Shown: positions 28,370 through 54,139 of the stretch, in pieces
How positions within the stretch are numbered: position 1 is the first letter of the stretch
How the letters are laid out: each line of letters begins with the position of its first letter
Source of the DNA: Nitrobacteraceae bacterium AZCC 2146
GTDB lineage: Bacteria; Pseudomonadota; Alphaproteobacteria; Rhizobiales; Xanthobacteraceae
NCBI GenBank assembly: GCA_036924855.1
Contig: JBAGRP010000001.1
Span: 1,922,001-1,986,000, forward strand
Direction of reading: 5' to 3'
Length of the DNA stretch: 64,000 nucleotides
Position numbers and translations under genes: made by a program
The notes under the pieces: generated by a model
What the model saw: the letters and a program-made list of their open reading frames with translations, nothing else
Told to the model about the DNA's origin: nothing
Database searches by the model: none

Positions 28370-28388
28370 AGCGGATGCAACAGTGGCC

Positions 28389-36311: not shown

Positions 36312-36318
36312 CGGCGCC

Positions 36319-38671: not shown

Positions 38672-38744
38672 TTAGACTTGCAAAAGACGGGGGTCTTGTC
38701 GAGTCCCCTGTCCGCAATTTTGATCTTCATCCAGGAGACCTGCT

Positions 38745-39443
38745 TTGAATTTGCCTGCTGCGCTCACCCTTGTAGAGCCGCTCGACCGCCAGACGTTGGG
38801 CGAGCGTGCTTATGCGCAGCTGGCTGATCTGTTGATTTCCGGGCGGCTCGCCCCAGGCGAGAAACTGTCATTGCGGGCAGCAGCTGATGTGCTCGGCGTA
38901 TCCATCATGCCGGTGCGCGAGGCCGTGTCGCGCCTCGTGGCCGACAAAGCCCTGGAAGTCGCCGCCAACCGCGCAGTGCGCGTGCCCGTGATGTCGTCGG
39001 TCCAATTTCGCGACCTGACCAAGGTTCGTATCGCGATCGAGGGGCATGCTGCGGCAGAAGCCGCCCTCCTCCGCAAGGACAGCAACCTGGCATCGATTGC
39101 GGCGGCCGAGGTGGCCATGCGCGCGGAAAGCGAAACGGCCACGCCAGATCTCGCGCGTGCCGTCGAACTCAACAAGACGTTTCATTTCGCAGTCTACGAG
39201 GCCGCGCAGTCGCCGATCCTGGTCGAGATCATCCGCACGCTCTGGCTAAAGGCCGGTCCCGTGATCAATCTCGATCTGCGCGGCAACCCAGACCGCCTGG
39301 CCAAGGGCGAAGCGATCCGGTTCCATGCCGACGTGCGCAAGGCGATTGCCGCAGGCGACGCTGTATCAGCAAAGGCGGGTATCGCCGCTGACATCACCGG
39401 TGCCGCGGACTTCATCCTGTCTCGCGGAGGCCTCTCCGCCTGA
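38745..39443 (+). CDS. GntR-family regulator (FCD subfamily)
   Basis: A 232-residue regulator. A TTG start at 38745 follows AGGAGACCTGCT. The winged helix (LGERAYAQLADLLISGRLAP then LRAAADVLGVSIMPVREAVS) is at about 16-75. The FCD effector domain follows (RIAIEGHAAAEAALL, NKTFHFAVYEAA, RFHADVRKAIAAGD), with the Asp/His residues that bind a metal and carboxylate ligand. It is divergent from the ABC/BKACE operon and probably controls it, typically as a repressor relieved by a pathway acid. Confidence 0.9.
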   Translation: MNLPAALTLVEPLDRQTLGERAYAQLADLLISGRLAPGEKLSLRAAADVLGVSIMPVREAVSRLVADKALEVAANRAVRVPVMSSVQFRDLTKVRIAIEGHAAAEAALLRKDSNLASIAAAEVAMRAESETATPDLARAVELNKTFHFAVYEAAQSPILVEIIRTLWLKAGPVINLDLRGNPDRLAKGEAIRFHADVRKAIAAGDAVSAKAGIAADITGAADFILSRGGLSA

Positions 39444-39468
39444 TCTTCATAGAACTCCCGGAGTCATC

Positions 39469-40245
39469 ATGGATCTCAATATCAAAGGTCTGCGCGTCAT
39501 CGTCACCGCAGGTGCGAACGGAATCGGACTCGCCATCGCGCGTGCCTTCGCTGGCGAAGGTGCCAGGGTTCATGTCTGCGATGTGGACCCGGCGGCGCTT
39601 TCGGCACTCGCATCCAGTCATCCGACGGTCACTTCGACCCAGTGTGACGTGGCGGACCGCTCAGCTGTCCAGAACCTGTTTGCGGAAGCGACAGCACAAC
39701 TCGGCGGGCTCGACGTGCTCGTCAACAATGCCGGAATTGCCGGCCCCACCGCGAAAGTCGAAGACATTCATCCTGAAGATTGGGATCGCTGTCTGGACAT
39801 CTGCCTTACCGGCCAGTTCAACTGCACACGCTTGGCGGTGCCGCTCTTGCGAATGAGTCCCAATGCCTCGATCGTCAATCTCTCGTCGGCCGCGGGGCGT
39901 GTGGGCTTTGCCATGCGCACCCCGTATGCCGCGGCGAAATGGGGCGTCATCGGCTTCACAAAATCTCTTTCGATCGAGCTTGGGCCGGACAACATCCGCG
40001 TCAATGCCATTCTTCCAGGTCTCGTTGCCGGTGACCGCCAGCGTCGGGTTCTGGAAGCCAAGGCGCAACAGCGAGGCATCTCCTTCACCGAGATGGAGAA
40101 GACAGCCTTCTCCTACACATCGATCAAAGACTACGTCACGCCGGAACAGATCGCCGACCAGATCCTATTCCTGTCTAGTCCGCGCGGACGCACGATTTCG
40201 GGACAGGCAATATCCATCTGTGGGGATACGCAAATGTTAGGATAG
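39469..40245 (+). CDS. Short-chain dehydrogenase/reductase
   Basis: A 258-residue classical SDR from the ATG at 39469, 26 bp after the GntR gene. The cofactor motif is TAGANGIG (residues about 12-19). NNAGIAG follows. Catalytic Ser is in VNLSSAAG and the YxxxK motif is PYAAAKWG. The C-terminal GQAISICGD replaces the common G-DGG. It probably oxidises a hydroxy compound in the same pathway as the divergent operon, because it is co-oriented with the regulator. The substrate is unknown. Confidence 0.9.
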   Translation: MDLNIKGLRVIVTAGANGIGLAIARAFAGEGARVHVCDVDPAALSALASSHPTVTSTQCDVADRSAVQNLFAEATAQLGGLDVLVNNAGIAGPTAKVEDIHPEDWDRCLDICLTGQFNCTRLAVPLLRMSPNASIVNLSSAAGRVGFAMRTPYAAAKWGVIGFTKSLSIELGPDNIRVNAILPGLVAGDRQRRVLEAKAQQRGISFTEMEKTAFSYTSIKDYVTPEQIADQILFLSSPRGRTISGQAISICGDTQMLG

Positions 40246-40620
40246 CACCTCCCCCGTATACAGACATCCGTGGAGCGTTCGCTGTGCGCAAGCGTGGACG
40301 GAATCCACGTGTTGCCGTCGTTGGTTGAGAGGCGTCCCGATAGCCATCGCTCCGATGCCAGAAATGATGCTGTCGCGCGAACTTGAAGGCAAAATATTGG
40401 ACGAGACCGAGACGCATGCGGCGGCAATCGGTCGGAAGCAGCGCGTCGCCTCAACATCAACCGCCAGCTTCTTTACACCAAGATGCAGCGGCGCCGAACT
40501 TCAATCCAGGACGGTATAAACCAACGCTAGAGCATGATCGCGTTGACCTGAATCGGTTTGGGATTCCCAAATCTGGTGGAGTGTGATTCAGAGGTGCTGT
40601 CTGAACGGGAGGCAGCATCG

Positions 40621-41070
40621 ATGGCCCGCGCTTATTCTCTGGATCTTCGTGAACGCGTTGTGGCGGCGGTTGCGGCGGGCGAGAGCTGCCGGAAGGTAGC
40701 CGCGCTCTTCAAGGTGAGCGTGGCGAGTGCGGTGAAATGGTCGCAACGCGCACGCGCCACCGGAAGCCCCGCGGCCCGCCCTATGGGTGGCAATCGACCC
40801 TATGCGCTGGCCGACCAGCGGGACTGGCTGCTGAAACGCCTTGCCGATCAGCCTGATGTGACGTTGCGGGCGCTGGTGGCGGAGCTTGCCGGGCGCGGCA
40901 TCAAGGTCAGCTATTATGCGGTGTGGCACTTCTTCGAGCATGAAGGCATCAGCTTCAAAAAAAAGCCTTCACGCCAGCGAGCAGGATCGCCCGGACGTGG
41001 CAAGGCGGCGGGCGCGATGGAAGCGCCTGCAAAACAAGCTCGATCCAGGCCGCCTCGTCTTTATCGATGA
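40621..41070 (+). CDS. IS630 transposase, first frame (DNA-binding part)
   Basis: Starts MARAYSLDLRERVVAAVAAG with the helix-turn-helix ESCRKVAALFKVSVASAVKW and a second winged part (VTLRALVAELAGRGIKVSYY). Useful coding ends at the run of eight A at 40957-40964 (SFKKK). Beyond it the catalytic part is in the next frame, so the remaining residues to 41070 are out-of-frame tail. Confidence 0.85.
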   Translation: MARAYSLDLRERVVAAVAAGESCRKVAALFKVSVASAVKWSQRARATGSPAARPMGGNRPYALADQRDWLLKRLADQPDVTLRALVAELAGRGIKVSYYAVWHFFEHEGISFKKKPSRQRAGSPGRGKAAGAMEAPAKQARSRPPRLYR

Positions 41071-41563
41071 GACCTGGGCCAAGACCAACATGACGCGCAC
41101 CCATGGCCGGGCGCCACGTGGCGAACGGCTGGTCGCGAAGGTGCCGCACGGTCATTGGCAAACCCTGACCTTCCTGGCAGCGCTGCGCTCGGATCGCATC
41201 GACGCTCCCTGCGTGATCGACGGGCCGATCAACGGCGACAGCTTCCTTGCTTATGTCGAGCAGGTGCTGGTCCCAGCCCTGAAGCCGGGTGACATCGTCG
41301 TCATCGACAATCTCGGCAGCCACAAGGGAAAGGCCGTTCGCCGCGCGATCCGCGCGGCCGGCGCGAAGCTGTTCTTCCTTCCGCCTTACAGTCCAGATCT
41401 CAACCCGATCGAGCAGATGTTTGCCAAGCTCAAAACCCTGCTGCGCAAGGCCGCAGAACGAACCGTCGAAGCCACGTGGCGCAGGATCGGAGCGCTCCTC
41501 AGCGCCTTCAGCCCTCAAGAATGCGCGAACTATTTGACAAACTCCGGATACGCTTCAACGTGA
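40886..41563 (+). CDS. IS630 transposase, second frame (DDE catalytic part)
   Basis: The catalytic domain effectively begins near 40960 (LHASEQDRPDVARRRARWKR). Triad residues are Asp in VFIDETWAKTNM, Asp in VVIDNLGSHKG and Glu in DLNPIEQMFAKLK. It is reached from the first frame by a one-base shift at the eight-A run, probably translational or transcriptional slippage. The 5-prime part of this frame (40886-40958) is non-native. Confidence 0.88.
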   Translation: MPGAASRSAIMRCGTSSSMKASASKKSLHASEQDRPDVARRRARWKRLQNKLDPGRLVFIDETWAKTNMTRTHGRAPRGERLVAKVPHGHWQTLTFLAALRSDRIDAPCVIDGPINGDSFLAYVEQVLVPALKPGDIVVIDNLGSHKGKAVRRAIRAAGAKLFFLPPYSPDLNPIEQMFAKLKTLLRKAAERTVEATWRRIGALLSAFSPQECANYLTNSGYAST

Positions 41564-41575
41564 GGCAATCACGCT

Positions 41576-42871
41576 CTAGGCTGCGTTTATCGCCGAACGA
41601 TGGTCGATCGATTTCTCGCTTTTTATGGTGGACAGATTTCCAGCGATCCGGACAGAAACAAACTCCGCATCGCGCCCCACACCGACGAAACGTCCCGAAC
41701 CCCACGTGTAAAGCCACGGCAGGCCCAACACATAAATCCCATCCATTGATGTTACGCCGCGCCGATGTGTCGGATAACCGGCACCATCGAAGATCGGGAG
41801 GTCGATCCATGACCAGTCCGATCGAAACCCGGTCGTCCAGATAATCGTGCTGATGCCGGCCTGCACCGGATCAAGCTCGCCAGCCGGCCTATCCGGTCGC
41901 CACACCGGTTCGTAATGCGGCGATGTCGGCGCATCGATCGAATTGCGCACAATATGATTGTCGATCAGGTCGCAGATGCCATTATAGACGCGGTCGGCAT
42001 TGTCGAGATTCTTCGCAAGATCGTTGGCGAACTTGAGGCGGCCATCCTGGACGTCGTTAAGCCGGCCGTACAGCGACATCCCCTCCAGCGCAAATTTGCG
42101 CAGATCGATGTCGCGCCCACCTTCCCGCCCGGTCAGGTAATGATTGGCGTTCTTGCGGACATTCTCCTTCAGACCGTGCTGATCCACCGGCAGGTCGTAC
42201 TGACCCAGATCGTCAAGCCATTCGACGGCATCGCGGCCGCGATAGACGCGGGGACATCGCGGCGCGCTGCCAACCGCGAGGTGAACCTTTCGTCCGGCGA
42301 GGTGAAGGTCTTCGGCTATCTGGCAGCCGGACTGACCGCTGCCGATCACCAGTATTTCGCCAGACGGCAACTGATCCGGATTGCGGTATGCGGACGAGTG
42401 CAGCTGTATGACAGAACCATCCAGCCGCTCAGCCATGCGCGGAATGTTCGGCACGTGATAGCCGCTCACCGCGAGCACGACCGCATCCGCCGTTATCTCC
42501 CCGGCGGACGTCTCGAGTAAAAACCGTGACCCCGCTCCCCGCTTTAGCCGGTTGACTGTAACGCCCTCCTTCACCGGTGCCTTGATCAGCGCCGCATAGT
42601 CTTCAATATAGGCAACGATTTCGTCGCGCAGCATGAAGCCCTTCGGATCGCTGCCAGCATAGGAAAATCCCGGAAGCTGACATTGCCAGTTCGGCGTCAC
42701 CAGACAAAAAGCGTCCCAGCGCTGGGTCTTCCAGGAATGCGCGATCTGGTTCTTCTCCAGAACGACGTGGTCAATGCCTTGCTGCTGAAGCTGGTGGCTC
42801 ATCGCCAGTCCGGCTTGGCCGCCGCCGATAACAGCGACGCTGACGTGAGAAGGAATCGAAAAATTTGTCAT
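41576..42871 (-). CDS. nitH: Flavin-dependent oxidoreductase of the Nit1C cluster (MSMEG_0569 type)
   Basis: A 431-residue FAD/NADPH oxidoreductase with two nucleotide motifs: VIGGGQAGLAMSHQL at about 14-28 and VIGSGQSGCQIAEDL at about 170. QRWDAFCLVTPNWQCQLPGF is typical of this MSMEG_0569-like group, related to flavin monooxygenases. CGGGAGAGACAC precedes the ATG. It is last in the Nit1C operon. Its TAG stop straddles the junction with the IS630 element, and the pre-insertion sequence would also have read TAG. The symbol follows recall of the Pseudomonas pseudoalcaligenes naming. Confidence 0.88.
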   Translation of the reverse strand: MTNFSIPSHVSVAVIGGGQAGLAMSHQLQQQGIDHVVLEKNQIAHSWKTQRWDAFCLVTPNWQCQLPGFSYAGSDPKGFMLRDEIVAYIEDYAALIKAPVKEGVTVNRLKRGAGSRFLLETSAGEITADAVVLAVSGYHVPNIPRMAERLDGSVIQLHSSAYRNPDQLPSGEILVIGSGQSGCQIAEDLHLAGRKVHLAVGSAPRCPRVYRGRDAVEWLDDLGQYDLPVDQHGLKENVRKNANHYLTGREGGRDIDLRKFALEGMSLYGRLNDVQDGRLKFANDLAKNLDNADRVYNGICDLIDNHIVRNSIDAPTSPHYEPVWRPDRPAGELDPVQAGISTIIWTTGFRSDWSWIDLPIFDGAGYPTHRRGVTSMDGIYVLGLPWLYTWGSGRFVGVGRDAEFVSVRIAGNLSTIKSEKSIDHRSAINAA

Positions 42872-42885
42872 GTGTCTCTCCCGGT

Positions 42886-43173
42886 TTATTCCTGAAATGA
42901 CATAACGGTGACGCCACCATCAGCGGCCGCCTTGAAACGCACCGAAGCGGCTTCGAGCTTTGCGAGTTGCCCCATCGCACGTGAACAGGCGAAGCCGTAT
43001 TTTTCCTGGACGCGGTCGCTGGCGATCGTCAGCGCGATTCGGCAGCGCTGCAGAAATTCCGAAACCGAATAGGTTTCTCCGACCGCGAGATGATCCTTGA
43101 TGACAAGCGAAGGCGAATAGCACTGCTCCGCCGTGCCATCGGGCCAGCGGACATGAAATAGCATCTCAGGCAT
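42886..43173 (-). CDS. MSMEG_0570-type nitrogen-starvation protein
   Basis: A 95-residue protein from the ATG at 43173 (MPEMLFHVRWPDGTAEQCYS). VRWPDG, YSPSL and GETYSVSEFLQRCRIALTIA are hallmarks of the small family annotated as MSMEG_0570 nitrogen-starvation-response proteins. It overlaps the glycosyltransferase stop by eight bases and lies 14 bp upstream of the flavoprotein gene. Its biochemical role is not known. Confidence 0.85.
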   Translation of the reverse strand: MPEMLFHVRWPDGTAEQCYSPSLVIKDHLAVGETYSVSEFLQRCRIALTIASDRVQEKYGFACSRAMGQLAKLEAASVRFKAAADGGVTVMSFQE

Positions 43174-44332
43174 GCTGCAGCTCCGCGAGTTTGTGATAAA
43201 TCGGCAGATGCGCCTGCGCCGTAACGGTCCAGTCATACTGTCTCGCGAGAAGAACGCCGCGATGGGCCAATCGCGAGCGCAGCGGTTCGGTCAGTACCGT
43301 CGCCATCGCATTCGCGATCGACGCAACATTCAGCGGATCGCACCAGACCACGTCGCTCTCGTGCAGATATTCGGTGAAAGGCGCGATCCGCGATGTCACC
43401 ACCGGCGTTCCGCTTGCCATCGCTTCGAGAACGACGAGACCGAACCCCTCCTTCACGGACGGAAACACCAGCGCATCCGCGAGCCGGTACAGCGACGGCA
43501 TGTGCACGTCAGGAACGGGGCCAAGGCGTGTCACCGCGCGATCGAGCACGCCGTTCGCTGCGATCAGGCTTTCGAACTCCCGCCGATAGGGACCGTGATC
43601 AAGCAACGAAGCCCCACCGACGAAAACAAGTTGCGCATCGGGATGGATAGTCAGCAGTTGCTGAAACGCTTCAAGGATCCGAACGCTGTTCTTTCGTTGC
43701 TCGATGCCGCCAACGGAAAGCAGAATAGGTCCGCCGCCAAGCTGGTATCGAGACCGCAACTCGGCGTCCAACGTGCACCCGCCGTTGGTGAAGCGCGTGG
43801 TATCGACACCATTTCCGACGTTCGTTGATCGGCGACCGAACTCGGCATGGACTCGCTGTTGCCAAAATTCGCTGACCACGAACAGTTCATCCGCCGCCAG
43901 TATGGAGTGCTTCTGCCAGTGGCTGAGGCGTGGATCTTCGAAGCTGTCGGTATGATGCACCGTGCGGGCGAACCGGCGGATCAAACCGCGCTCCTTCAGC
44001 GTTGCCAGCGCATTGCCGGAAATTGCATCCTGCGCATGAAACACATCGAAGCGGCGACGGGCCGGCAACTCGAAATGGCGGACGTAGTCGGCGATCCGGG
44101 CTTCCACCATGGCGGCAACGTCGGGACCGACATGCGACGCTGTCACCGTTACTGCCGGTGACAGCGTCGCACGGAAGAAACCTTTTCCAGAGGGATCAGG
44201 CGCGTGTGCCACCGCCTCATGGCCGAGTCGGGTCAGGCCGTCGGCCAGTTCGAGCGCATGCACTACTCCGCCACGGGGATTGGTGGAGTGGGCGAGGACA
44301 GCAATGCGCAGAGGTCTGTTGGGTTCGATCAT
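43166..44332 (-). CDS. GT4 glycosyltransferase of the Nit1C cluster (MSMEG_0565 type)
   Basis: A 388-residue GT-B enzyme starting MIEPNRPLRIAVLAHSTNPR at 44332, where ATGA overlaps the previous stop. Donor-site motifs are LSVGGIEQRKNSVRILEAF and KEGFGLVVLEAMASGTPVVT, the EX7E element. The acceptor side shows GGVVHALELADGL. The family accompanies nitrilase clusters of nitrogen-starved bacteria. Which metabolite or polymer it glycosylates is unknown. Confidence 0.9.
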   Translation of the reverse strand: MIEPNRPLRIAVLAHSTNPRGGVVHALELADGLTRLGHEAVAHAPDPSGKGFFRATLSPAVTVTASHVGPDVAAMVEARIADYVRHFELPARRRFDVFHAQDAISGNALATLKERGLIRRFARTVHHTDSFEDPRLSHWQKHSILAADELFVVSEFWQQRVHAEFGRRSTNVGNGVDTTRFTNGGCTLDAELRSRYQLGGGPILLSVGGIEQRKNSVRILEAFQQLLTIHPDAQLVFVGGASLLDHGPYRREFESLIAANGVLDRAVTRLGPVPDVHMPSLYRLADALVFPSVKEGFGLVVLEAMASGTPVVTSRIAPFTEYLHESDVVWCDPLNVASIANAMATVLTEPLRSRLAHRGVLLARQYDWTVTAQAHLPIYHKLAELQHA

Positions 44333-45327
44333 GCCACCGCCTCCGTTGGCTGGCACGCGCGAGGCCCCGCACCTATCAACGGCTTTTGCGCAAAATCCCA
44401 AATTGTTTCCGACGCGACGCCATCGTTGATGGCGAGACGACTGCCACGCAAGACCGAGCCAATTGTCGCCGCCGCAATGCCCCGCTCTGCAAAACGCGCG
44501 GTGACCTCGACGACGTTCCCTGGCGCGACCGACAACAGATAGCCGAAACTCGGGAACGTCAGCAGCCACCGCTCGAGCGAGACGCCGTCAGGCCGCGGGA
44601 TGACGTTGAGATCGAGATCGATGGCAACGCTGGAACATTCCGCAAGCATGGCCGCCGTGCCGACGATACCACCCTGGCTGATGTCCTTTGCGGCATATGA
44701 AAGGCCAGCCTCCGCGATCGCTGGCAACAACTCGATGTCACCGCGCAGCCTCGCAGGAGGTGCGTCGGTGGCAGCCTCCCAGTTCGAGAACGGCTCGCGG
44801 TATCGCCCGCGCAGGTCGATCGCCGCGATCAGGCTGTCGCCAGGCCGCGCATCAAAGCTGGTGAGCAGCTTCCTGGCGCGACCGAGAATCGCCACCGACA
44901 GCTGCCCGCGATCGGTGCGGATGTTGGTGTGCCCCCCCACGACTGGAACGCCATAGGCTCTCGCTCCGTCGCGCAAACCCGCGAGCACTGGAGCTGCTTT
45001 GGTTTCGCCATCGGCCCAGATCGCGTTGACGATCGCCATCGGCCGCCCGCCCATCGCCGCGATGTCGGAAATGTTGACCATGGCGCCGCACCAGCCTGCG
45101 AACCACGGATCGCCCGCGACGAATTCGTTCATGAAGCCCTCGATGGCAAACAGCAGATAGCCATCACCATCCGGAATCGCCGCGCAGTCATCGCCAACGG
45201 GAATCACGTCATCGCCGGACAGGCCGAGCGACCGCGCGACCGCGGCGATATCGCTCTTGGCCGCGATGCCGCTGCTGCATCGAAGCCGTTCCGCCAACGC
45301 GGATATGGCCAGCGAGCCAATCATCAC
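44329..45327 (-). CDS. nitF: AIR-synthase-like protein of the Nit1C cluster
   Basis: A 332-residue PurM/SelD/ThiL-type ATP-binding fold. VIPVGDDCAAI resembles the Asp-rich metal/ATP site; NISDIAAMGGRPMAIVNAIW and VVGGHTNIRTDRGQLSVAIL are characteristic. The C-terminal AIRS_C half includes AKDISQGGIVGTAAMLAE. It is presumably an ATP-dependent activating enzyme, as in purine or hydrogenase-maturation relatives. It is coupled to both neighbours by ATGA overlaps. Confidence 0.88.
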   Translation of the reverse strand: MMIGSLAISALAERLRCSSGIAAKSDIAAVARSLGLSGDDVIPVGDDCAAIPDGDGYLLFAIEGFMNEFVAGDPWFAGWCGAMVNISDIAAMGGRPMAIVNAIWADGETKAAPVLAGLRDGARAYGVPVVGGHTNIRTDRGQLSVAILGRARKLLTSFDARPGDSLIAAIDLRGRYREPFSNWEAATDAPPARLRGDIELLPAIAEAGLSYAAKDISQGGIVGTAAMLAECSSVAIDLDLNVIPRPDGVSLERWLLTFPSFGYLLSVAPGNVVEVTARFAERGIAAATIGSVLRGSRLAINDGVASETIWDFAQKPLIGAGPRACQPTEAVA

Positions 45328-45872
45328 GCCGCTAACTTCGGCAGGGAAAGAAAGCCGATCTCGGGCTCGAGAAATGGCGGATAGAATTCAAGATCCGCCT
45401 GCATCATGCGATGCGGCCTACCGTGCAATTGGACCTCCTCCAGCGTGCGCCAGTGCATGTGACGGAATAGCTCCGCATTCTGGCTTTGAATGTTACCGAG
45501 GAAGGTATGGCAGCCGCGCGCATGGGCTGAAGAAACCGCGAGCCGGATCAGCCCGGCGCCGACGGCACCAAGGCGACGGTAAGGCCTGCTTACCGCGAGC
45601 CGCGAGCCCCACCAGACGCTGGGGTCCTCGGGATGTTGGTGAATGCGAACGGTACCGACCACCGCATCGGCAGCGACGCCGAACAGCGAAATCGCGACAA
45701 TCGGAATAGCAACATCATCGACGTCGTCACGATCGTCGCCCTGGAATAAGCCCTGCTCGCCGCAAAACACCTGGCGCCGCAGTGCTGCGGCGCCGCGCTC
45801 CTCCCACGTCTCGGTGGCGAACTTGATCTGATAGGCGCTGGCGAGGAACGGCTTGAAGGGTTCGAACATCAT
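45324..45872 (-). CDS. nitE: GNAT-type N-acyltransferase of the Nit1C cluster
   Basis: A 182-residue protein starting [20 protein letters not shown] at 45872, chosen for the ATGA overlap with the radical SAM gene. YRRLGAVGAGLIRLAVSSAH is the acetyl-CoA pyrophosphate loop region of GNAT enzymes. LRRQVFCGEQGLF resembles acyl-homoserine-lactone-synthase-like GNATs. The family (MSMEG_0567 N-terminal type) always travels with the nitrilase. The substrate is unknown. Confidence 0.88.
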   Translation of the reverse strand: MMFEPFKPFLASAYQIKFATETWEERGAAALRRQVFCGEQGLFQGDDRDDVDDVAIPIVAISLFGVAADAVVGTVRIHQHPEDPSVWWGSRLAVSRPYRRLGAVGAGLIRLAVSSAHARGCHTFLGNIQSQNAELFRHMHWRTLEEVQLHGRPHRMMQADLEFYPPFLEPEIGFLSLPKLAA

Positions 45873-47005
45873 GTCTGCGCCCTCTTCTCGTAGGTCGAAA
45901 GCGCCGAGCACGCACCGCACTTGCCGCAACCGGCCTTGATATCGCTGGATTTGATACCGCCCGCGCGCAGCATTTTGGCGAGCGGCCCAAGGATCTCATG
46001 CATGAAGGCTGGCGGCGGCGTGGGATGACTTTCCAGCGGCGTGCCCGCGATCGGTACGAACGGCACCACGAACGGATAGACGCCGAGGCGGACAAGCCGA
46101 TCGCAGACGGCGAGAATCTCGTCCCTGGTGTCGCCGAGACCAGCAAGGATGTAGGTCGAGACCTGGCCAAGTCCGAACACCGGCACCGCTGCTTCAAACG
46201 CATTGAAGTAGCGCTCCACAGACACCAGCGCCTTGCCTGGCATGATGCGTTTGCGCACCCGCTCAGTGACAGCTTCGAGATGCATGCCCAGAGAATCGAT
46301 GCCGGCGTCCTTCATGCGCCGGAACCAGATGTCGTCATCCGGCGGCTCGCATTGTCCCTGGATCGGCAGATCGACCGCGGCCTTGACTCCAAGCGCACTC
46401 TCGCAAAGGATTTTCGCGCCGCGGTCGCTGCCCGGCGGTGTGCCCGTCGTCATCACCATGTGTGTGACGCCGTCGAGTTCGACGGCCGCCCGGGCCACTT
46501 CGCCGAGCTGCTCCGGCGTCTTACGCTCGATCGTGCGGCCGGCGGCAAGCGATTGGCCGATGGCACAGAACTGACAGGTCTTGGTCCGGCTCTGGTAGCG
46601 GATGCAGGTCTGCAGGATGGTCGTCGCCAGCACATCGCGGCCATGCAACGTCGCAATTTTTGAGTAGGGAATGCCATCCGCGGTTGAACGTTCATAGAAC
46701 CGCGGCCGCAACTGAAATTTCACTTCGCCGATCATGGCACCGTCGCGGCTGACGCGGCTGCGACCCCACGCATCCGGCTTGTCGACGATGTAGGGACTCT
46801 CGAAAGCCGGCGCGTTGTGCACCGGGATCATCACGGTCGCGCCGTCGATGGTCATCGGCATATGGTCGGAGGGGCCCGCACCACCGCGGCGACTATCACC
46901 GCCGGCCTTGGGATCAACGAGACGAACTCCGAAGGACTGCAACTCGTTGATCAGCTGCTCGGTCGGCATCGCCGTCGGCTGTTCGTGGGCCAGAATCGGT
47001 TTCAT
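45869..47005 (-). CDS. nitD: Radical SAM protein of the Nit1C cluster (MSMEG_0568 type)
   Basis: A 378-residue radical SAM enzyme from the ATG at 47005 (GGAGGACAATCCG upstream). The cluster-binding cysteines appear as [14 protein letters not shown]: Cys134-x9-Cys144-x2-Cys147, not the canonical Cx3Cx2C. A C-terminal CGKCGAC (Cys360, 363, 366) could bind an auxiliary Fe-S cluster. [13 protein letters not shown] is the GGE-like region. The first 92 bases overlap the nitrilase gene in another frame. The reaction in the cluster is unknown. Confidence 0.9.
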
Positions 47006-47972
47006 CGGATTGTCCTCCGGAGGTGGAGAGAGGTGTGGAGCTTGATTTGTGCAGCGGCGTCGTAACGCGGTCGTCCCAAAGCAACGACAGCAGCTCTGGA
47101 CGGGCGTAGTGACCGACCGAATCCATCATCCTCTTGCGTTTGACGATCAGCGCCATGTCGAGATCGGCGACGAGAATGCCTTCGCCTGTCGTCAGTGGAG
47201 GAACGATATGATTGCCCTCGGGCGAGACGATCGCGGTCATGCAGCCCCCGCGCAGGCCTTTGCGCGGACCTTCGTCGGGTGAAATCTTGGCAATCTGCTC
47301 TTCGGTGAGCCATCCGGTGGCGTTAACGACAAAGCAGCCGCTTTCCAATGCGTGGTGGCGGATCGTGACTTCGATCTGGTCGGCAAAGATCTGCCCGACC
47401 AACGAGCCCGGAAACTGCGCGACGTGAATTTCCTCGTGCTGCGCCATCAAGGCGTAGCGGGCCAGCGGATTGTAGTGCTCCCAGCACGCCAGCGCACCGA
47501 TGCGCCCGACGGCGGTATCGACCACCTTGAGGCCGGCGCCATCACCCTGCCCCCAGATCATGCGCTCATGGAAGGTGGGTGTGAGCTTGCGGCGTTTCAG
47601 CAGCAGCGCGCCATCGGCATTGAAGATCAGTTGCGCGTTGTAGAGCGTACCGTGGTCGCGTTCGTTAATGCCGAGCGCGACCACGAGGTTGTGCTTGCGG
47701 GCCGCCGCCGTCACCGCTTCTGTTACAGGACCAGGAACAACGACGGCATTGTCGTAGAGGTGAATGTGCTCAGCGCCGCTGAGCATGGGCGGACGGATGA
47801 ACGAGAAGTATGGATACCATGGGACAAATGTCTCGGGGAACACGACGAGATGTGCGCCCTTTCCGGCAGCCTCCGCGATCGCCGCGAGAACACGATCCAG
47901 CGTTCCCATCGGCCTGTCGAGGTCGGGCGCGATCTGCACCGCGGCGGCCCTGACAATACGTTTCTCGGTCAT
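46914..47972 (-). CDS. nitC: Nitrilase of the Nit1C cluster
   Basis: A 352-residue carbon-nitrogen hydrolase with the full Glu-Lys-Cys triad: Glu47 in [12 protein letters not shown], Lys129 in [11 protein letters not shown] and Cys163 in [14 protein letters not shown]. The MIWGQGDG motif is typical of aliphatic nitrilases. GGAGAGAAGCCG precedes the start. Related NitC hydrolyses cyanohydrins and small nitriles to acids and ammonia during cyanide assimilation. The last 31 codons (after about TPLHKSS) overlap the 5-prime end of the radical SAM gene and are Ser/Arg/Asp-rich, so the true functional end may lie earlier. Confidence 0.93.
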
Positions 47973-48007
47973 CGGCTTCTCTCCATCCGCACGGCTGAAC
48001 TATTTCG

Positions 48008-48490
48008 CTAGAGTGTCCAGGTATGGAGCATGAAGGCATTGTCGTTGCGGTGAAGCAGCGTCAGATCCAGCACGTCGAGCGGGCTGATCGGGATGATGCC
48101 GGGAATCAGCGACGGCTCGCCATGGCCGTAGAGTGCCTGCAGTGCGAACCGGCATGCATAGACCTTGCCGCCTTCTTCCATGAACTTCACCAGCGTGTTG
48201 TTGAAATTCTGGTGGCCCGGAAATGCTTCATCGCCGATTTTCGGAAAGCCACGCTGCACGCCAAGCGTCACGCCGGGACCATAAAGCAGGATCGAGGTCT
48301 CGAAACCTTTGCGCATCAGCCGCGTCGCTTGCAGCATGTTGACGAAGCCGATCGAACCTTCGAATGCGACCGTGTGGAAGGTCACCAGCGCCTTTTCGCC
48401 GGGCTTTGCTTTGACGTCCTCAAATACCTTCTGCTCGTAGTCGACCAGGATGTCGCCCTTTTGGCGAGCGGGAAATGTTACGGCTGGCAT
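48008..48490 (-). CDS. nitB: MSMEG_0572/Sll0783 family protein (Nit1C first gene)
   Basis: A 160-residue protein beginning [20 protein letters not shown] at 48490, chosen for AAGGAGTGCAAC; the open frame continues upstream without support. It has a DsrE-like fold pattern: [38 protein letters not shown] and [20 protein letters not shown]. In Synechocystis the homologue sll0783 is strongly induced by nitrogen starvation and needed for PHB accumulation. It leads the eight-gene operon on the minus strand. Confidence 0.9.
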
Positions 48491-48832
48491 GTTGCACTCC
48501 TTGCGATTGTCCCGGGCGTCGGCCGGGCTTGCAAAAGGATATTGCAACGGATGTGCCAATTGAGGTTTTGCACAACGACGCATCAAAACATTCAATTTGC
48601 CATCAATTATGCATTCAATATTGAATGGATTTCTGACGGGATGGAAACTGTCGCCACTAAAAAATGCGTATAAACCATGTGCGACATGCGTTTTCATTGA
48701 GCAATCGCCGTTCGCAGGAACTTATTTTCTTGCAGACGCAGCGCCTTATCGGCTTGGCATGGCACGCTTGACCGAAGGTTTTATATGCAACAATATGCAG
48801 TCAATTGTAGGCAACATTGACGCGAGACATTG
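48491..48832. promoter_or_regulatory. Divergent control region of Nit1C and the MocR gene
   Basis: A 342-bp AT-rich stretch with a perfect 16-bp palindrome CATTCAATATTGAATG (48612-48627) and another CATTCAAT half at 48589-48596, 23 bp away centre to centre of the shared half. Nearer the MocR start, GCAACAAT and GCAACATT form a direct repeat about 30 bp apart. MocR regulators usually bind direct or inverted repeats in such a divergent region. Confidence 0.55.
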
Positions 48833-50215
48833 ATGGCCGAGTGGACACCCGATCTGTCGAGAAGCGACAAGCCGCGTTATCTGGCTATCGCGGAAGCGAT
48901 CGCCGCTGATATCAGTGCGGGACGACTTGCAGTCGGAGATCGTTTGCCGCCGCAACGCAAGTTGGCCAAGTATCTCGACGTGGATTTCACGACCGTGGCG
49001 CGCGGCTATGTCGAAGCGCAGAAGCGCGGCCTGATTGAATCCAAGGTCGGACAGGGCACTTTCGTTCGCGACAAGCCGCGCCCGCGGCGCGGCCAGCAAG
49101 CGCTGCCCCCACGTCCGGTCGATCTCTCCATGAATCTGCCGCCGGAGCCCGACGATCCCGACTTAATCGAGCGCATGCAGGCCGGCGTCGAGTATGTGTC
49201 GCGGGATATCGTTTCGCTTTTGCGCTACCAGGGCTTTGGCGGAACGCAGGCCGACAAGGATGCGGCCTCGAGCTGGCTTGGCCGGCGCGCATTGGTGCCC
49301 GCGCAGGAACGCATTTTCGTGTCGCCGGGTGCGCATCCGGCGCTGCTCGGAATTCTGGCGATCCTCGCTAAATCAGGCGACACTGTCCTCTGCGAAGCCT
49401 TGACCTATCCTGGCATTCGATCGATCGCGGCGCAGCTCGGTGTCAAGCTTGTCGGTTTGCCGATGGATGCGGAAGGCATCGAGGTCGATGCCCTGACCGA
49501 CGCCTGCAAGAAGACCAAGCCCAAAGCCCTCTATCTCAATCCGACTTTGCAAAATCCGACGACCATCACGATCAGCGATCAGCGGCGGCGCGACATCGCA
49601 GCCGTGGCGCGGCGCTTCAAGCTTCCTATCGTCGAGGACGATGCCTATGGCTTCATTCCAGCCCATGGGCACGCGCCTTTCGCAGCGATCGCACCCGATC
49701 TGACCTGGCATGTCGCCGGTCTGGCCAAGTGCATCGGTGCCGGGCTCCGCGCGGCCTATGTTGTTGTTCCCGACACCCGATCAACATGGCCGTTCGCCGC
49801 TGCGCTGCGATCGGCAACGGTGATGGCGTCACCATTCACAGTCGCACTGGTGACGCGATGGATCGAGGACGGGACCGCCGACACGCTTCTGCGGTTCATC
49901 CGCAGCGAGGCAGCGGCCCGCCAGAAGCTGGTCTTCGAGACCTTGCCAAAGGGTAGCTACCAAAGCGATCCGCTCAGCTTCAACATATGGGTCGAACTGC
50001 CCCGCCCGTGGAATCGTGCGGCCTTCGTGGAACACATGCGCTCAACCGGAATCGGCGTGGTCGCCAGCGACGCCTTTACTACGAACGGCAATCCGCCCGA
50101 AGCCGTGCGCGTGTGCCTGGGTGGCCCGATCACCCGCCCCCGACTGTTGGCGGGCCTTGAATATATGGCTCACGCTCTAACGGAAGCACCTGCGCTCGCG
50201 TCGACTTTCCTTTGA
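48833..50215 (+). CDS. MocR-type (GntR-aminotransferase) transcription regulator
   Basis: A 460-residue protein from the ATG at 48833, which a TTG precedes by one codon. The N-terminal GntR winged helix (LAIAEAIAADISAGRLAVGD, PPQRKLAKYLDVDFTTVARG) spans residues 15-80. A fold-type-I aminotransferase domain follows, with the PLP-binding Lys299 in GLAKCIGAGLRAAY, YLNPTLQNPTT and VEDDAYGF. Such regulators use PLP and a small amino-type ligand. It is divergent from nitB and the natural candidate regulator of the Nit1C operon. In cyanotrophic Pseudomonas the Nit1C regulator NitA is sigma-54-linked instead. Confidence 0.9.
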   Translation: MAEWTPDLSRSDKPRYLAIAEAIAADISAGRLAVGDRLPPQRKLAKYLDVDFTTVARGYVEAQKRGLIESKVGQGTFVRDKPRPRRGQQALPPRPVDLSMNLPPEPDDPDLIERMQAGVEYVSRDIVSLLRYQGFGGTQADKDAASSWLGRRALVPAQERIFVSPGAHPALLGILAILAKSGDTVLCEALTYPGIRSIAAQLGVKLVGLPMDAEGIEVDALTDACKKTKPKALYLNPTLQNPTTITISDQRRRDIAAVARRFKLPIVEDDAYGFIPAHGHAPFAAIAPDLTWHVAGLAKCIGAGLRAAYVVVPDTRSTWPFAAALRSATVMASPFTVALVTRWIEDGTADTLLRFIRSEAAARQKLVFETLPKGSYQSDPLSFNIWVELPRPWNRAAFVEHMRSTGIGVVASDAFTTNGNPPEAVRVCLGGPITRPRLLAGLEYMAHALTEAPALASTFL

Positions 50216-50393
50216 CATAGGAATGGTGAGAAGGCACGCGCCGGGCTTCAATCGCCGCACCGCATATGCGCATGTATACCGGCCCTGACCATTCCGTTAT
50301 TGCAGGGATCTAATCCACGCAATTTGCTCCAAAGGAATGTTTCTATTTCTGGTGTTTTTTCAGGCACTTAACTACGGTCTGCCCGGTGAGAGG

Positions 50394-50688
50394 TGGTGCG
50401 GGCGGGGGGACTCGAACCCCCACAGGCCTTGCGGCCCTACGGATTTTCATACCACTTCGGCTTTCGCCGCCGCCATCTGGCGTTCGTGGTCTGGACTATC
50501 CCTTCACCCTGGCAATGTGCTGTAGGTGCTGCCCGTCTAGTCTCTACACCTTCCCCTCGGGAGAGGGGCTTGGCTCGGGATTGCCAGTTAAGGTTTCCCC
50601 GAATTTGAGCAGTTCTGCACCCCGGGTTTCCCCGGGGGCACTCAACGTCGTTCAAGTCCGGTGCGTCTACCAGTTTCGCCACGCCCGC
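50394..50688 (-). tRNA. tRNA-Leu(UAA) interrupted by a group I intron
   Basis: Exon 1 is 50688-50654 (acceptor GCGGGCG, D arm, and anticodon arm up to CTT). Exon 2 is 50447-50394 (AAAATCCG, long variable arm GGGCC-GCAA-GGCCT, T arm GGGGG-TTCGAGT-CCCCC, CGCCCGC, A and encoded CCA). Joining the exons gives an anticodon loop CUUAAAA closed by CGGA/UCCG, so the anticodon is UAA. The interruption lies between U34 and A35, the classic site of the cyanobacterial and plastid tRNA-Leu intron. The long variable arm is class II, as expected for leucine. Confidence 0.93.
50448..50653 (-). ncRNA. Group I intron (206 nt) in tRNA-Leu
   Basis: The intron begins GAACGACG and ends in G (omega-G) before exon 2. 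P1 pairs exon ACUU with GAGU, leaving a U-G wobble at the splice site. P2 is CCCCGGG-GAAA-CCCGGGG (17-34). P3 is CUGCUC (42-47) with GGGCAG (120-125). P4 is UCGGG (52-56) with CCCGA (75-79). P6 is CCCCUC-UCCC-GAGGGG (86-101). P7 is GACUA (112-116) with UAGUC (156-160), P8 is CACC/GGUG, and P9 is ACCAC/GUGGU. No homing endonuclease is encoded. It is the size of the Azoarcus tRNA-Ile intron and resembles the IC3 type. Confidence 0.92.
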
Positions 50689-50878
50689 GCAGCCCATCTA
50701 TACGATGCAAACACTTGGCCGCAAAGGGATCAGCCCGAATTTCGCACACGGATTAATCAGCTGAGGCCTGCGAATGTCAGGCAAGCTCCCCGCACCGGGA
50801 AAAGTCCGCGCCAGACACAACCGCGCCGGCCTGATCACTCAGGCCGGCGTGGAAGCTCGCGAATCTGAGCGGCGCCGG

Positions 50879-52507
50879 TTATTCCTTCTTGTCGATGTTC
50901 CAGAACACCGGGGTGGCGGCGCCGCCAATGACACCAGTCAGTGACTTCCGCCATATGCTGGGCAGCTGGTATTCGCCGAGCGGAATGTAGGTGACCTGTT
51001 CAAAGACCCGCTCCTGAACTTCAGCGGCAAGCTTCTTCTGCTCGTCCGGCGAGGTCGCGCGCGAGAACTTGTCGCGCAACTCTTCCAGCTTGGCGTCTTC
51101 AGTCCAGCCGAACCAGCCACCAGTGGTCTTGCCTTTGCCCGACGTCGAGACGTTGGAGATCGGGTTCAGAATGTCCGCACCAACCCAATTGGTGAAGAAC
51201 ATGTTCCAGCCGCCCTCCTTCGGCGACTTCTGGCTGGCGCGGCGGGTCACCACGGTCTGCCAATCGGTGGCCTGCACTTCAACCTTGAAACCGGCGTCAC
51301 GCAGTTGCTGCGCCACCACGATCGGTTGCGCCTTCAGCGTCGATACGTCGGTCGGTGCCATGATCACAACGGGCGTACCATCATAGCCGGATTCCGCGAG
51401 CGCCTTCTTGGCCTCCGCCAAGCCGTTGCCCTTGACCAGCGTTTCCGATCCAACCGCCGTCTCAAGCGGCGTGCCGCAGCCGAACACTGCGCCACAAACC
51501 TTGTAATAGTCGGCATTGCCGATCAGCGCGTCCAGAACCGGCTTCTGGCTCATCGCTAGGAACGCAGCGCGGCGAACCTTGATGTTATCGAACGGAGGAT
51601 AGAGGAAATTCATGCGGCCCAGCGTCTGGTAGCCGAGCTTGTTGAGGACCTCCATCTTGAGATCCTTGTCCTTGGCGAGCACCGGGATCATGTCGTACGG
51701 CGTGTTCTCCATGAAATCGATGTCGCCTGACTGCAGCGCATTCACCGCGGTCTGCGCGTCGGGCATCGTGATCCACTCAACACGATCGACCTTCACCACC
51801 TTGCCGCCGGCCGTCCAGCTCGCGGGCTCGGAGCGCGGCACATAGTCCGTATTCTTCTCGTAGACAGCCTTCACGCCCGGCTGGAATTCAGCCTGGACGA
51901 ACTTGAACGGGCCCGAACCGATCTGCTCAGAGATCGCCTTGTCCGCCGGCGTGTCGGCGAGGCGCTTCGGCATCATGAACGGCACCACCGACGACGGCTT
52001 GCCGATCGATTCCAGCACGAGGCCGTAGGGTTCCTTCAGCGTCAGCGTGACGGTCTTCGCGTCGGTTGCTTCCAGGCTCTTGGTGAAATCCATGAGCTTC
52101 TGGCCCATGCCGTCGCGCTTGCCCCAGCGTTGCAGCGAGGCGACGCAATCCTCGGCAGTCACCGGCTTGCCGTCGTGCCACTTCAGGCCATCGCGCAGCG
52201 TGAAAGTGTAGACCAGCTTGTCGTCGGAAACCTTGTAGCTCGCCATCTGCGGCTGAACCTTGAAGTTTTCATCCATCGCCAGCAACGTGTCGTAAACCAT
52301 GTAGCCGTGGTCGCGCACGATGTAGGCGGTGGTGATGATCGGATCGAGCACGCGCAGGTCGGAATGCATCACCGCCGAGATGGTCTTGCCGGCTGCCAGA
52401 GCCGGAAGTGAAAACGCCGGAAGCGCCAGTGCCGCCGCGACGATCACGCCGGACAGCGTCGATTTAGAAAACGCCGCGGAATGCCGCCAACGTGAGATGT
52501 AAGACAT
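50879..52507 (-). CDS. Dipeptide/oligopeptide-type ABC substrate-binding protein
   Basis: A 542-residue SBP_bac_5 protein with a signal peptide (GVIVAAALALPAFSLPALA). It has SDLRVLDPIITTAYIVRDHG at the start of the mature part, GLKWHDGKPVTAEDCVASLQ and NFLYPPFDNIKVRRAAFLAM. It captures peptides or similar compounds in the periplasm for the DppBC-DppDF-like importer encoded on the opposite strand from 54140. It is divergent from an M20 carboxypeptidase gene. GGAGAGACCG precedes the ATG. Confidence 0.92.
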   Translation of the reverse strand: MSYISRWRHSAAFSKSTLSGVIVAAALALPAFSLPALAAGKTISAVMHSDLRVLDPIITTAYIVRDHGYMVYDTLLAMDENFKVQPQMASYKVSDDKLVYTFTLRDGLKWHDGKPVTAEDCVASLQRWGKRDGMGQKLMDFTKSLEATDAKTVTLTLKEPYGLVLESIGKPSSVVPFMMPKRLADTPADKAISEQIGSGPFKFVQAEFQPGVKAVYEKNTDYVPRSEPASWTAGGKVVKVDRVEWITMPDAQTAVNALQSGDIDFMENTPYDMIPVLAKDKDLKMEVLNKLGYQTLGRMNFLYPPFDNIKVRRAAFLAMSQKPVLDALIGNADYYKVCGAVFGCGTPLETAVGSETLVKGNGLAEAKKALAESGYDGTPVVIMAPTDVSTLKAQPIVVAQQLRDAGFKVEVQATDWQTVVTRRASQKSPKEGGWNMFFTNWVGADILNPISNVSTSGKGKTTGGWFGWTEDAKLEELRDKFSRATSPDEQKKLAAEVQERVFEQVTYIPLGEYQLPSIWRKSLTGVIGGAATPVFWNIDKKE

Positions 52508-52805
52508 CGGTCTCTCCTGACTTGAATCTGATCATCGGTCGATGATTCATTATGCAGCGCGATAGAATTTTAGGCGCTACCACGCGCTGTCACTTTATCT
52601 TTTAGACATCAAAGACTTGCACCAAGCGTGCGGCGCGTCAATCGGGTTTTCGTTTCGTCGTTTCCGCGTTGTGCGTGACACGCTGCGCAGATTTGCAAAC
52701 ACAAATCCACTGCTGATAAGTGTCGCCACGCGTCGTGCGATGTACGCACCGCGTGACGCCTCTGCAGACCCACGACCAAAATTCTCATCTACAAGGAATC
52801 TCTCG
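52508..52805. other. Divergent promoter region
   Basis: A 298-bp region between the binding protein and the M20 peptidase genes. No operator-like palindrome was picked out. Confidence 0.4.
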
Positions 52806-53939
52806 ATGAATCCCGCCAACCTTCCGTTCGATACCGAAGAGATGCTGCAGGGCCTGCGCACATGGGTCGAGTGCGAAAGCCCGACCTGGGATGCGAACGC
52901 CGTCAACAGCATGCTCGATCTCGCCGCGCGCGAGATGGCGATCATGGGTGCGACCATCGAACGCATCGCCGGACGAATGGGCTTTGGCGGCTGCATCCGC
53001 GCCCGCTTCCCGCATCCGAAATTCGGTGAGCCCGGCATCCTAATCGCGGGCCATATGGATACCGTGCATCCGGTCGGCACCATCGAGAAGCTGAAGTGGC
53101 GCCGTGAAGGAACCAAGTGCTACGGCCCCGCGATCTGCGACATGAAGGGCGGCAACTACCTGTCGCTGGAAGCGATCCGCCAGTTGGCGCGCGCCTCGTT
53201 CACCACGCCGCTGCCGATCACCGTGCTGTTCACGCCCGACGAGGAAGTCGGCACGCCGTCCACGCGCGACATCATCGAAGCGGAAGCCGCGCGCAACAAA
53301 TACGTGCTGGTGCCCGAGCCCGCCGGCCGCGGCGGCCAGGGCGTCGTCACCGGCCGCTATGCGATCGCTCGTTTCAATCTCGAGGCGATCGGCAAGCCCA
53401 GCCATTCCGGCGCGACGTTGTCCAACGGACGCTCCGCGATTCGCGAGATGGCGCGTCAGATCATCGCCATCGACGGGATGACCGGTCCGGATTGTACCTT
53501 CAGCGTCGGCATCGTGCATGGCGGCCAGTGGGTCAACTGCGTGGCCTCGTCCTGCACCGGCGAAGCGCTCAGCATGGCGAAGCGGCAGGCCGATCTCGAT
53601 GCCGGCGTCGAGCGCATGCTGGCGCTGAACGGCACCGCCAACGACGTCACCTTCAAGGTGACGCGCGGCGTCACGCGGCCGGTCTGGGAGCCGGATGCCG
53701 GCACCATGGCGCTGTATGAAAAAGCCAGGGTCATCGCCAAAGGCCTCGGCGTCGATCTGCAGCACGAGAGCTCCGGCGGCGGCTCCGACGGCAACTTTAC
53801 CGGCGCGATGGGCATTCCGACCCTCGATGGTCTCGGCGTCCGCGGCGCCGACATGCATACGCTGGGCGAGTTCATCGAAGTCGACAGCCTGGTCGAGCGC
53901 GGCCGCCTGATGGCCGGATTGCTGGCGACGCTGGATTAA
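52806..53939 (+). CDS. M20 family metallopeptidase (glutamate carboxypeptidase-like)
   Basis: A 377-residue protein from the ATG at 52806 (AAGGAATCTCG upstream). Metal ligands are seen in AGHMDTVHP (His83, Asp85), ICDMKGG (Asp) and TPDEEVG (catalytic Glu and ligand Glu). ESSGGGSDGNFTGAMGIPTL precedes the C-terminal MHTLGEF His. It matches the CPG2/carboxypeptidase G2 branch that cleaves C-terminal glutamate or related amide bonds. It probably acts on the imported substrate inside the cell. Confidence 0.88.
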   Translation: MNPANLPFDTEEMLQGLRTWVECESPTWDANAVNSMLDLAAREMAIMGATIERIAGRMGFGGCIRARFPHPKFGEPGILIAGHMDTVHPVGTIEKLKWRREGTKCYGPAICDMKGGNYLSLEAIRQLARASFTTPLPITVLFTPDEEVGTPSTRDIIEAEAARNKYVLVPEPAGRGGQGVVTGRYAIARFNLEAIGKPSHSGATLSNGRSAIREMARQIIAIDGMTGPDCTFSVGIVHGGQWVNCVASSCTGEALSMAKRQADLDAGVERMLALNGTANDVTFKVTRGVTRPVWEPDAGTMALYEKARVIAKGLGVDLQHESSGGGSDGNFTGAMGIPTLDGLGVRGADMHTLGEFIEVDSLVERGRLMAGLLATLD

Positions 53940-54139
53940 TGCACAACGGCACAACGTTGCCGCGCCGGGAACCCGGCGCGGCAACTGTGGCGGTGGCACA
54001 GGACTTGCTCATCACGGGCATTAGGCAAGTTGCGACAGTGAGGACTATGACAAACGTGTGCAGCGAGCCCGCGACGTTCCCGATCAACCCGCGCCAGACG
54101 TTCGTGACGTCCGGTGCTATTGGCCGATAGGAACGCTCC

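Follow-up and report, generated by a model that had tools for sequence, protein, structure and literature searches.

Small group I ribozymes that hold no reading frame interrupt tRNA-Leu(UAA) in cyanobacteria and plastids, at the same insertion site and in the same size class as the intron described here. A 2002 study by Rudi reportedly, to go by its title, argued already for recombination of the whole tRNA locus besides transfer of the intron. Group I introns occur in the same gene in Proteobacteria too, where they are not known to travel on a mobile element. Tycheposons are mobile elements that carry tRNA genes. The cyanobacterial and plastid introns share their host gene with ours (available parts of PMC3984707 and PMC5733544), and elements with related properties have been described elsewhere. 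Islander tRNA-targeted genomic islands have a tyrosine integrase, anticodon-centred sites and tRNA fragments at their ends, as do the elements reported below (PMC4383910, available portion). The tRNA-dependent lysogeny of actinobacteriophages follows the same logic without an intron (PMC10865867, available portion). In archaea, a tRNA intron at an attachment site has been proposed to protect against further integration (Sugahara 2012, PMC3293823, and Randau and Soll in PMC4390854, both in part). Here we analyze an intron-bearing tRNA-Leu(UAA) gene of an alphaproteobacterium and compare it with integrative elements of related bacteria.

RESULTS

A group I intron interrupts tRNA-Leu(UAA)

The window, the whole 64-kb stretch of DNA that was analyzed, contains a split tRNA-Leu(UAA) gene at 50394-50688 on the minus strand. 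Its parts, in window positions, are as follows:

50654..50688, minus strand: 5' exon of tRNA-Leu(UAA), ending ...GGACTT (U34), from the sequence
50448..50653, minus strand: group I intron of 206 nt, final base G, from the RF00028 match (50.9 bits) and covariation
50394..50447, minus strand: 3' exon of tRNA-Leu(UAA) including the CCA end, beginning AAAATCC (A35), from the sequence

The presence of a group I intron in this gene is near certain. A cmscan of the window at the gathering threshold gave RF00028 (Intron_gpI) as the sole Rfam match, at 50663-50471 on the minus strand, covering the full model with an E value of 5.6e-10 and scoring just above the gathering score of 50; no further RF00028 match occurred in the 7.64-Mb genome. 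Together the exons make up a class II tRNA whose anticodon loop reads CTTAAAA, the intron being inserted between U34 and A35. ARAGORN missed the split gene at default settings and, with introns allowed, misplaced the boundary and named the gene Ser GGA. The initial annotation, made from the sequence without database searches, had proposed a class II tRNA-Leu(UAA) interrupted at U34/A35 by a 206-nt group I intron with a terminal G. Gene, site, length and last base are as the sequence has them, and the search with the Rfam group I covariance model that the annotation suggested, together with the covariation described below, bears out the class of intron.

The ribozyme structure is conserved and covaries

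We aligned 21 introns at the tRNA-Leu(UAA) site, comprising the window intron and those of 13 other bacterial loci, 2 plasmid loci and 5 viral contigs. These rows were hand-picked from 25, with the near-duplicates L189, L118 and L181 and a 776-nt viral intron (L128) excluded. RNAalifold recovered most helices from the alignment; the structure that was tested was written by hand and consists of P1-P9, the P3/P7 pseudoknot and the exon stem, with P6 and P7 added to the RNAalifold helices. Its main strands in the window are as follows:

50640..50645, minus strand: internal guide sequence UUGAGU, which forms P1 by pairing with ACUU of the exon and GA of the intron; the splice site has a U-G pair
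50617..50639, minus strand: P2 hairpin with a GAAA loop, from the alignment and the sequence
50607..50612, minus strand: P3 5' strand CUGCUC; P3 is 100% paired, with both-side changes in 4/6 pairs
50529..50534, minus strand: P3 3' strand GGGCAG, from the covariation test
50538..50542, minus strand: P7 5' strand GACUA; P7 is 100% paired, with both-side changes in 1/5 pairs
50494..50498, minus strand: P7 3' strand UAGUC, from the covariation test

Across the 21 rows, 96.2% of the 1277 cells of the P1-P9 structure were paired, and 32 of its 61 pairs showed changes on both sides. Neither value was reached in any of 500 shuffles, and sliding the partners by 1-3 columns left only 29.5-44.3% of cells paired. 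P4 and P6 are invariant in the alignment and are therefore uninformative on covariation. Together with the RF00028 match, the covariation supports the conserved core P3-P9 with its P3/P7 pseudoknot. A U-G pair stands at alignment columns 8-26 in 21/21 rows, in agreement with the splice-site wobble drawn in the initial annotation, and the helices drawn with it (P1, P2, P3, P4, P6, P7, P8 and P9) hold in the alignment as well. Folding of the whole gene gave a z score of -3.4, with none of 200 shuffles equally good.

The 25 introns from which the rows were picked end in G, and the P2 loop is GAAA in the rows inspected. In Azoarcus, P8 holds an 11-nt receptor that matches this loop; a motif resembling it was clear in the P8 of some relatives, L043 (CCTACG...TATGG) and L047, and degenerate in the window intron. 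The window intron should be self-splicing, as predicted from its structure.

No other tRNA-Leu(UAA) was found in the genome

There were 46 tRNA-model matches in the genome, from which ARAGORN derived 44 tRNAs, leaving the isotype of one unclear. Leu CAA, CAG, GAG and UAG are represented by one gene each and there is no intact Leu(UAA) among the 44, a list that is incomplete since Ile(GAU) and Ala(UGC) are missing from it. The initial annotation had considered that a second, intact tRNA-Leu(UAA) might make the split gene a pseudogene; pattern and BLAST searches of the genome found no intron-less copy. Relaxing the pattern brought up a single match, probably Leu(CAA). As no other tRNA-Leu(UAA) was found, splicing of the window gene should be essential for reading UUA. 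A separate oddity of the tRNA set is L064 (G000:C1:3959205-3959276), which is near-identical to L023, named Met(CAU), has an altered anticodon loop and received no name from ARAGORN.

The gene borders a 46-kb insert at the native tRNA site

Comparison with sister genomes placed the gene at the edge of a large insert, which is delimited as follows:

3272..4757, no strand: conserved left flank, from the sister-genome comparison
4758..50690, no strand: insert of about 46 kb between flanks that are near each other in G017, G006 and G003
50808..54086, no strand: conserved right flank, including an SBP_bac_5 solute-binding protein gene at 50879-52507 (minus strand), from the sister-genome comparison
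4760..4771, plus strand: core-like site GGACCTTAAATC, with 2 mismatches to the attachment core GGACTTAAAATC of the elements described below (weak; sought once the border was known)

In G017, G006 and G003, an intact, intron-less tRNA-Leu(UAA) sits between the two flanks, and in the window the intron-bearing gene lies at the right edge of the insert, at the inner end of the right flank. The native tRNA has the window orientation in G017 and is reversed between the same flanks in G006 and G003, and the site has therefore undergone more than one rearrangement. The distance from the tRNA to the right flank is about 9-13 kb in G001, G005 and G016. Among the 17 other genomes of the genus, the tRNA-Leu(UAA) allele was read in 8; an intron-less allele is shared by 7/17 (matches of 98-100%) and G004 has a different one. 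The window exons and the genus's native allele have different acceptor, anticodon and variable arms. When the part of the insert at 48400-50817 was compared with the 17 sister genomes, only short tRNA pieces matched.

The insert holds genes for efflux, a sensor, prkA-spoVR, a transporter and others, and part of it is lower in GC. No tyrosine recombinase turned up among the island's reading frames that were scanned; a search of it for transposon ends and for a host tRNA half found none, the only transposases seen being one IS3-type and one DDE_3. The core-like site lies three bases inside the left border and is the only one in the window, on either strand, with at most 2 mismatches to the 12-nt core.

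Integrative elements of relatives carry an intron-bearing replacement tRNA

G510 and other related genomes contain elements with the following order: the 5' half of the host tRNA-Leu(UAA), cut after the anticodon loop, then an integrase gene, then a full intron-bearing tRNA-Leu(UAA). The integrase gene, which in the Afipia-type copy L337 lies at 8350-9555, has about 400 codons, matches Pfam integrases weakly and shows no variation at the YSLRHT and tyrosine positions; when solved structures were searched with its profile, nothing matched. In 8 of the 10 elements searched, the host 3' half was found 20-40 kb downstream, and in the other two (G036 and G385) the contig ends before it. The eight complete elements measure 39.5 kb (G510, which is Afipia sp. 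62-7 by the integrase record), 36.2 kb (G646), 34.6 kb (G626), 27.6 kb (G068), 20.4 kb (G144), 29.9 kb (G628), 29.4 kb (G493) and 38.2 kb (G492). When the halves were joined at CTTAAAA, ARAGORN recognized a tRNA-Leu(UAA) in 8/8 elements. The rejoined genes of G510, G646 and G626 are identical over 87 nt to L034, a native gene of the window's genus, and to none of 30 other family loci checked. The two ends of each of the eight elements have 7-13 bp in common, always including CTTAAAA, and the intron of the replacement gene falls inside this shared core. G626 has no integrase next to the tRNA.

The one element that we annotated, that of G510, carries a MobA/MobL relaxase, two TraG-like proteins and the Gabija pair GajA/GajB. 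At L344:1110 in the same element stand the 3' end of an intron and a tRNA-Leu 3' exon, where the core motif is absent by pattern. Just downstream, at L344:1191-3434, lies a candidate defence gene of the PDC-S06 (AAA_13) kind that matches PrrC weakly; the loci compared hold no further copy of this gene. By pattern, G646 has four intron cores in one genome, and an extra intron 3' end with exon occurs at about 5106 of its locus L341. At about 11530 of L341, an Afipia-type element copy stands in what by eye is a P-type ATPase-like reading frame, at AAGGGACTTAAAATC and not in a tRNA gene; this is possibly a secondary integration site.

The window gene resembles the gene carried by Afipia-type elements

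Upstream of the window gene lies a further feature:

50696..50778, minus strand: upstream stretch of 83 nt with a TATAGAT box, resembling the integrase-tRNA spacer of Afipia-type elements

Local alignment of this stretch to the spacers of L338, L341 and L337 gave scores of 38, 37.5 and 35; 400 shuffles scored no higher than 20, and 29 native upstream regions no higher than 13.5. The same three Afipia-type copies are the nearest rows to the window in the intron tree, and the highest whole-gene identity among the sequences compared, 93.8% of ungapped columns, is with L308 of G510. On the strength of spacer, tree and gene identity, the window gene, its upstream stretch and the island look like the remnant of an element. 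The window thus has foreign DNA at the native tRNA site, with a (weak) core remnant and an element-like spacer; an integrase and host halves are lacking, and hence we call it a relic and not an element. When the island was compared with three relatives' elements, two generic transporter proteins matched and nothing else.

In the intron tree, in which 27/57 inner branches are open, families are mixed, and two Acidobacteriota MAGs and a resistance-plasmid copy stand among the alphaproteobacterial rows. The exons of an uncultured Rhodospirillaceae contig (L048) are identical to those of L373, from a genome of the window's family; an exon tree, having few columns, settles little.

Introns and integrases are associated at tRNA-Leu(UAA)

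We then ran 61 intron-bearing loci through one script. Sixty were parsed, 58 being distinct (two are duplicated) and L384, considered below, being counted. An integrase of this family lies upstream on the same strand in 15/60 genes, 14 of these within about 310 bp (L190 has fragments only), a host 5' half occurs in 16/60, integrase or half in 20/60, and neither in 40/60. Among 38 intron-less control loci, 34 have an intact tRNA-Leu(UAA), and within 1.5 kb of these there was neither an integrase (0/34) nor a host half (0/34). Because the control flanks are 1.5 kb and most test flanks about 10 kb, the comparison was limited to 1.5 kb. An integrase was present in 14/58 intron-bearing against 0/34 intron-less loci (Fisher p 8e-4), and an integrase or half in 19/58 against 0/34 (p 4e-5), the loci of this comparison having been collected by their introns.

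Counted from the integrase side, relatives of the integrase, at the profile thresholds used, occur in 21/387 class genomes and 15/248 family genomes. An integrase together with a tRNA-Leu(UAA) half was found at 12 loci, with an intron-bearing gene downstream in 10 and an intron-less one in 2. Set against the 29/248 family genomes with the core motif, this gives a binomial p of 2.5e-8, for loci that are kin; the count is not independent, since 8 of the 10 intron-bearing loci are rows of the profile and G646 is almost identical to G510. Only G337, G622 and G610 are new to the profile. The intron-less replacements are those of G622 and G610 (2/13 elements). In G622, a base pair next to the loop is inverted and the core is thereby altered, and in G610 the core is unchanged. 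As intron-less replacements exist, the intron is common in these elements and not obligatory. Viral contig L431 has a half and an integrase, with no tRNA-Leu intron in the 2.1 kb downstream. A related element in G158 carries an intron-less tRNA-Leu(UAG), and other members of the integrase family adjoin tRNA-fMet, an Arg-like tRNA, Leu(UAG) or Leu(CAA). An integrase link was also considered for introns of other tRNA genes (tRNA-Arg, -Lys and -Thr-like) and rejected: 0/14 loci, with flanks of 0.1-1.5 kb, have an integrase of this family or a split gene.

The intron is scattered among relatives, plasmids and viruses

RF00028 matched in 3/61 near-relative genomes, the window's own included, and in 34/387 genomes sampled across the Alphaproteobacteria, a class-wide scan whose strict filters probably lost some loci. 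By manual reading, with G347 left out, the intron lies in tRNA-Leu(UAA) in 18 of the 34 positive class genomes; the remaining introns are in tRNA-Arg(CCU), -Lys or -Thr-like genes or elsewhere. Group I introns of Alphaproteobacteria were assigned by eye to tRNA-Lys (L207, L209, L328) and to tRNA-Thr-like genes (L218, L219, L220, L275). L384 (G124), from an alphaproteobacterial MAG, is a plastid-like tRNA-Leu(UAA) intron with a very long branch in the intron tree and is probably contaminating plastid DNA. How far the intron has spread in the family, which the initial annotation left open, can be answered in part. A pattern search found the core motif in 29/248 family genomes and 18/47 genera, by manual reading always in tRNA-Leu(UAA) except in G505 (tRNA-Arg) and G648 (tRNA-Lys). 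Within the window's genus it was found in 1/18 genomes; the idea that the intron is hidden in the other genomes was rejected, as both RF00028 and the core pattern were negative in 17/17. A pattern scan of named genomes gave 11 intron stretches, in Sphingobium, Oricola, Aestuariivita, Bradyrhizobium, Xanthobacteraceae, Rhodospirillaceae, Hyphomicrobiales, two unplaced Proteobacteria MAGs and two Acidobacteriota MAGs.

BLASTN against 72,556 plasmid records gave a match in 1272, in 1266 of them over at least 80% of the query; four of the 1272 are Bradyrhizobium plasmids. Five plasmid records were inspected closely, and in the four that are not from Bradyrhizobium, aac(3)-II resistance genes begin about 0.65 kb past the tRNA. 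The intron-bearing tRNA-Leu(UAA) thus adjoins aac(3)-II in L188 (pCTX-M3), L189, L191 and L192, and a tmrB-like ATPase gene lies between the two in L188 and L192. No gene is listed at the tRNA locus of these plasmids, in a gene table that omits RNA genes. The plasmid tRNA-Leu(UAA) shares 96% identity (ungapped columns) with the gene of G626, and its source may be alphaproteobacterial.

At least 120 stretches of viral contigs hold tRNA genes interrupted by introns of the same core. In L076, L111, L138, L160, L163 and others, such introns lie in other tRNA genes, by eye for example Arg-like or Lys-like. Two tRNA-Leu-type viral introns, L128:535-1310 (776 nt, HNH_3, E 1.8e-4) and L161 near 5403-6014 (HNH, E 7.5e-4), have an HNH reading frame in the 5' part of the intron that extends into the ribozyme core. 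According to a 2014 review, the phage introns then known were all in protein genes (PMC3984707, available portion).

DISCUSSION

Our comparisons suggest that the window gene likely arrived as the replacement tRNA of an integrative element that is now a relic. The initial annotation had asked whether the intron was transferred horizontally or inherited from of old; the data now point to transfer of the whole gene on elements, which had not been proposed there. In our model, tRNA-Leu(UAA) exons and intron would arrive together as the replacement tRNA of the element. A tyrosine recombinase of about 400 amino acids would join the element to the anticodon loop of the host tRNA-Leu(UAA), at a 7-13 bp core around CTTAAAA. 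The host gene would be split and not rebuilt, and the intron-bearing tRNA-Leu(UAA) of the element, just downstream of the integrase gene, would take over. Integrase and host halves would since have disappeared from the window genome, while the tRNA, expected to be indispensable, would have stayed at the edge of the 46-kb island in the native site. Against an element origin stand the lack of an integrase or half in the window and the restriction of its matches with three elements to generic transporters. The model is also weakened by the 40/60 intron-bearing genes with neither integrase nor half, by the intron-less replacements of G622, G610 and the tRNA-Leu(UAG) element, by viral contig L431, by the reversed native tRNA of G006 and G003, and by the 14 introns of other tRNAs, whose short flanks showed no integrase link.

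The intron splits the core into CTT and AAAA, leaving the replacement gene without an unbroken target for the same integrase. The group I intron may, with clearly less than an even chance, shield the tRNA copy of the element, the core being split in the DNA and spliced together in the RNA; the element would then carry a functional copy of the tRNA gene that its integrase attacks and keep that copy out of the enzyme's reach. As the last step of the model, we infer that the intron would be kept since it removes the replacement gene from the targets of the integrase; it may also make the host resistant to elements of that kind that arrive later. A reading with a little under an even chance of being right accepts transfer by an element and takes the intron for a passenger without a shielding role. 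The donor gene may simply have had an intron and the elements are kin, and replacements without one exist in G622 and G610, as does the tRNA-Leu(UAG) of G158; the unchanged core of the intron-less replacement in G610 speaks directly against shielding. A mere passenger fits less well with the frequency of the intron (10/12 loci, compared with about 1 in 9 family genomes), with its position inside the shared core in all eight elements with both ends known, and with the changed pair beside the loop in G622, which alters the core of a replacement that has no intron. The question of shielding is testable with short DNA substrates and one enzyme.

Homing of the intron into tRNA-Leu, for example from phages, would make the adjoining island a coincidence. 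The HNH reading frames of the viral tRNA-Leu-type introns L128 and L161 make homing at this site plausible, and the patchy distribution (1/18 genus genomes and 29/248 family genomes) agrees with it. We nevertheless regard it as unlikely: three arms of the exons themselves are unlike those of the genus's native allele, the upstream stretch is like that of an element and unlike native upstream regions, and a 206-nt intron is too short to hold an endonuclease gene. Old vertical inheritance within the Alphaproteobacteria, with many losses, is less probable still. It could account for RF00028 in 34/387 class genomes, with 18 of the 34 in tRNA-Leu(UAA) (one being probably plastid DNA), yet the intron tree, despite its open branches, mixes families, Acidobacteriota MAGs and the resistance plasmid, sister genomes carry other exons at the same place, and the exons of L048 (Rhodospirillaceae) and L373 (window's family) are identical. 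A pseudogene or an artefact of the assembly is scarcely credible, given intact class II exons with complementary stems, a complete RF00028 match, the same arrangement in other genomes and no other tRNA-Leu(UAA) found.

Replacement by an integrative element, the reading that we prefer, would, if true, link ribozyme introns with tRNA-dependent integration, both of them known phenomena. If shielding is true as well, it would give a reason for group I introns in the anticodon loop of bacterial tRNA genes, and the scattered tRNA-Leu(UAA) introns of Proteobacteria would be fossils of such elements. Among the best matches listed in our search of mainly open-access literature, no paper described a group I intron in the replacement tRNA gene of an integrative element.

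The type of intron described here differs from those of cyanobacteria and plastids in its host lineage and in its tie to integrative elements. Islander islands restore the gene that they split (PMC4383910, available portion), whereas the elements here bring another gene instead. Similarly, tRNA-dependent lysogeny concerns phages of Actinobacteria, whereas here elements of Alphaproteobacteria bring a replacement whose intron interrupts the core; in the available part of that report, the word "intron" appears once, in a reference title (PMC10865867). The archaeal case is the closest in idea. There, a mobile element may gain from delivering an intron-bearing tRNA (PMC3293823, PMC4390854 and the review PMC8371274, each in part), and as here the element brings that tRNA, but the introns are archaeal and in Sugahara's model attP itself is intron-bearing (PMC3293823, in part). 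Here a bacterial ribozyme intron lies in a separate, full replacement gene, which, if shielding holds, would be a bacterial case of the archaeal idea that tRNA introns guard against integration.
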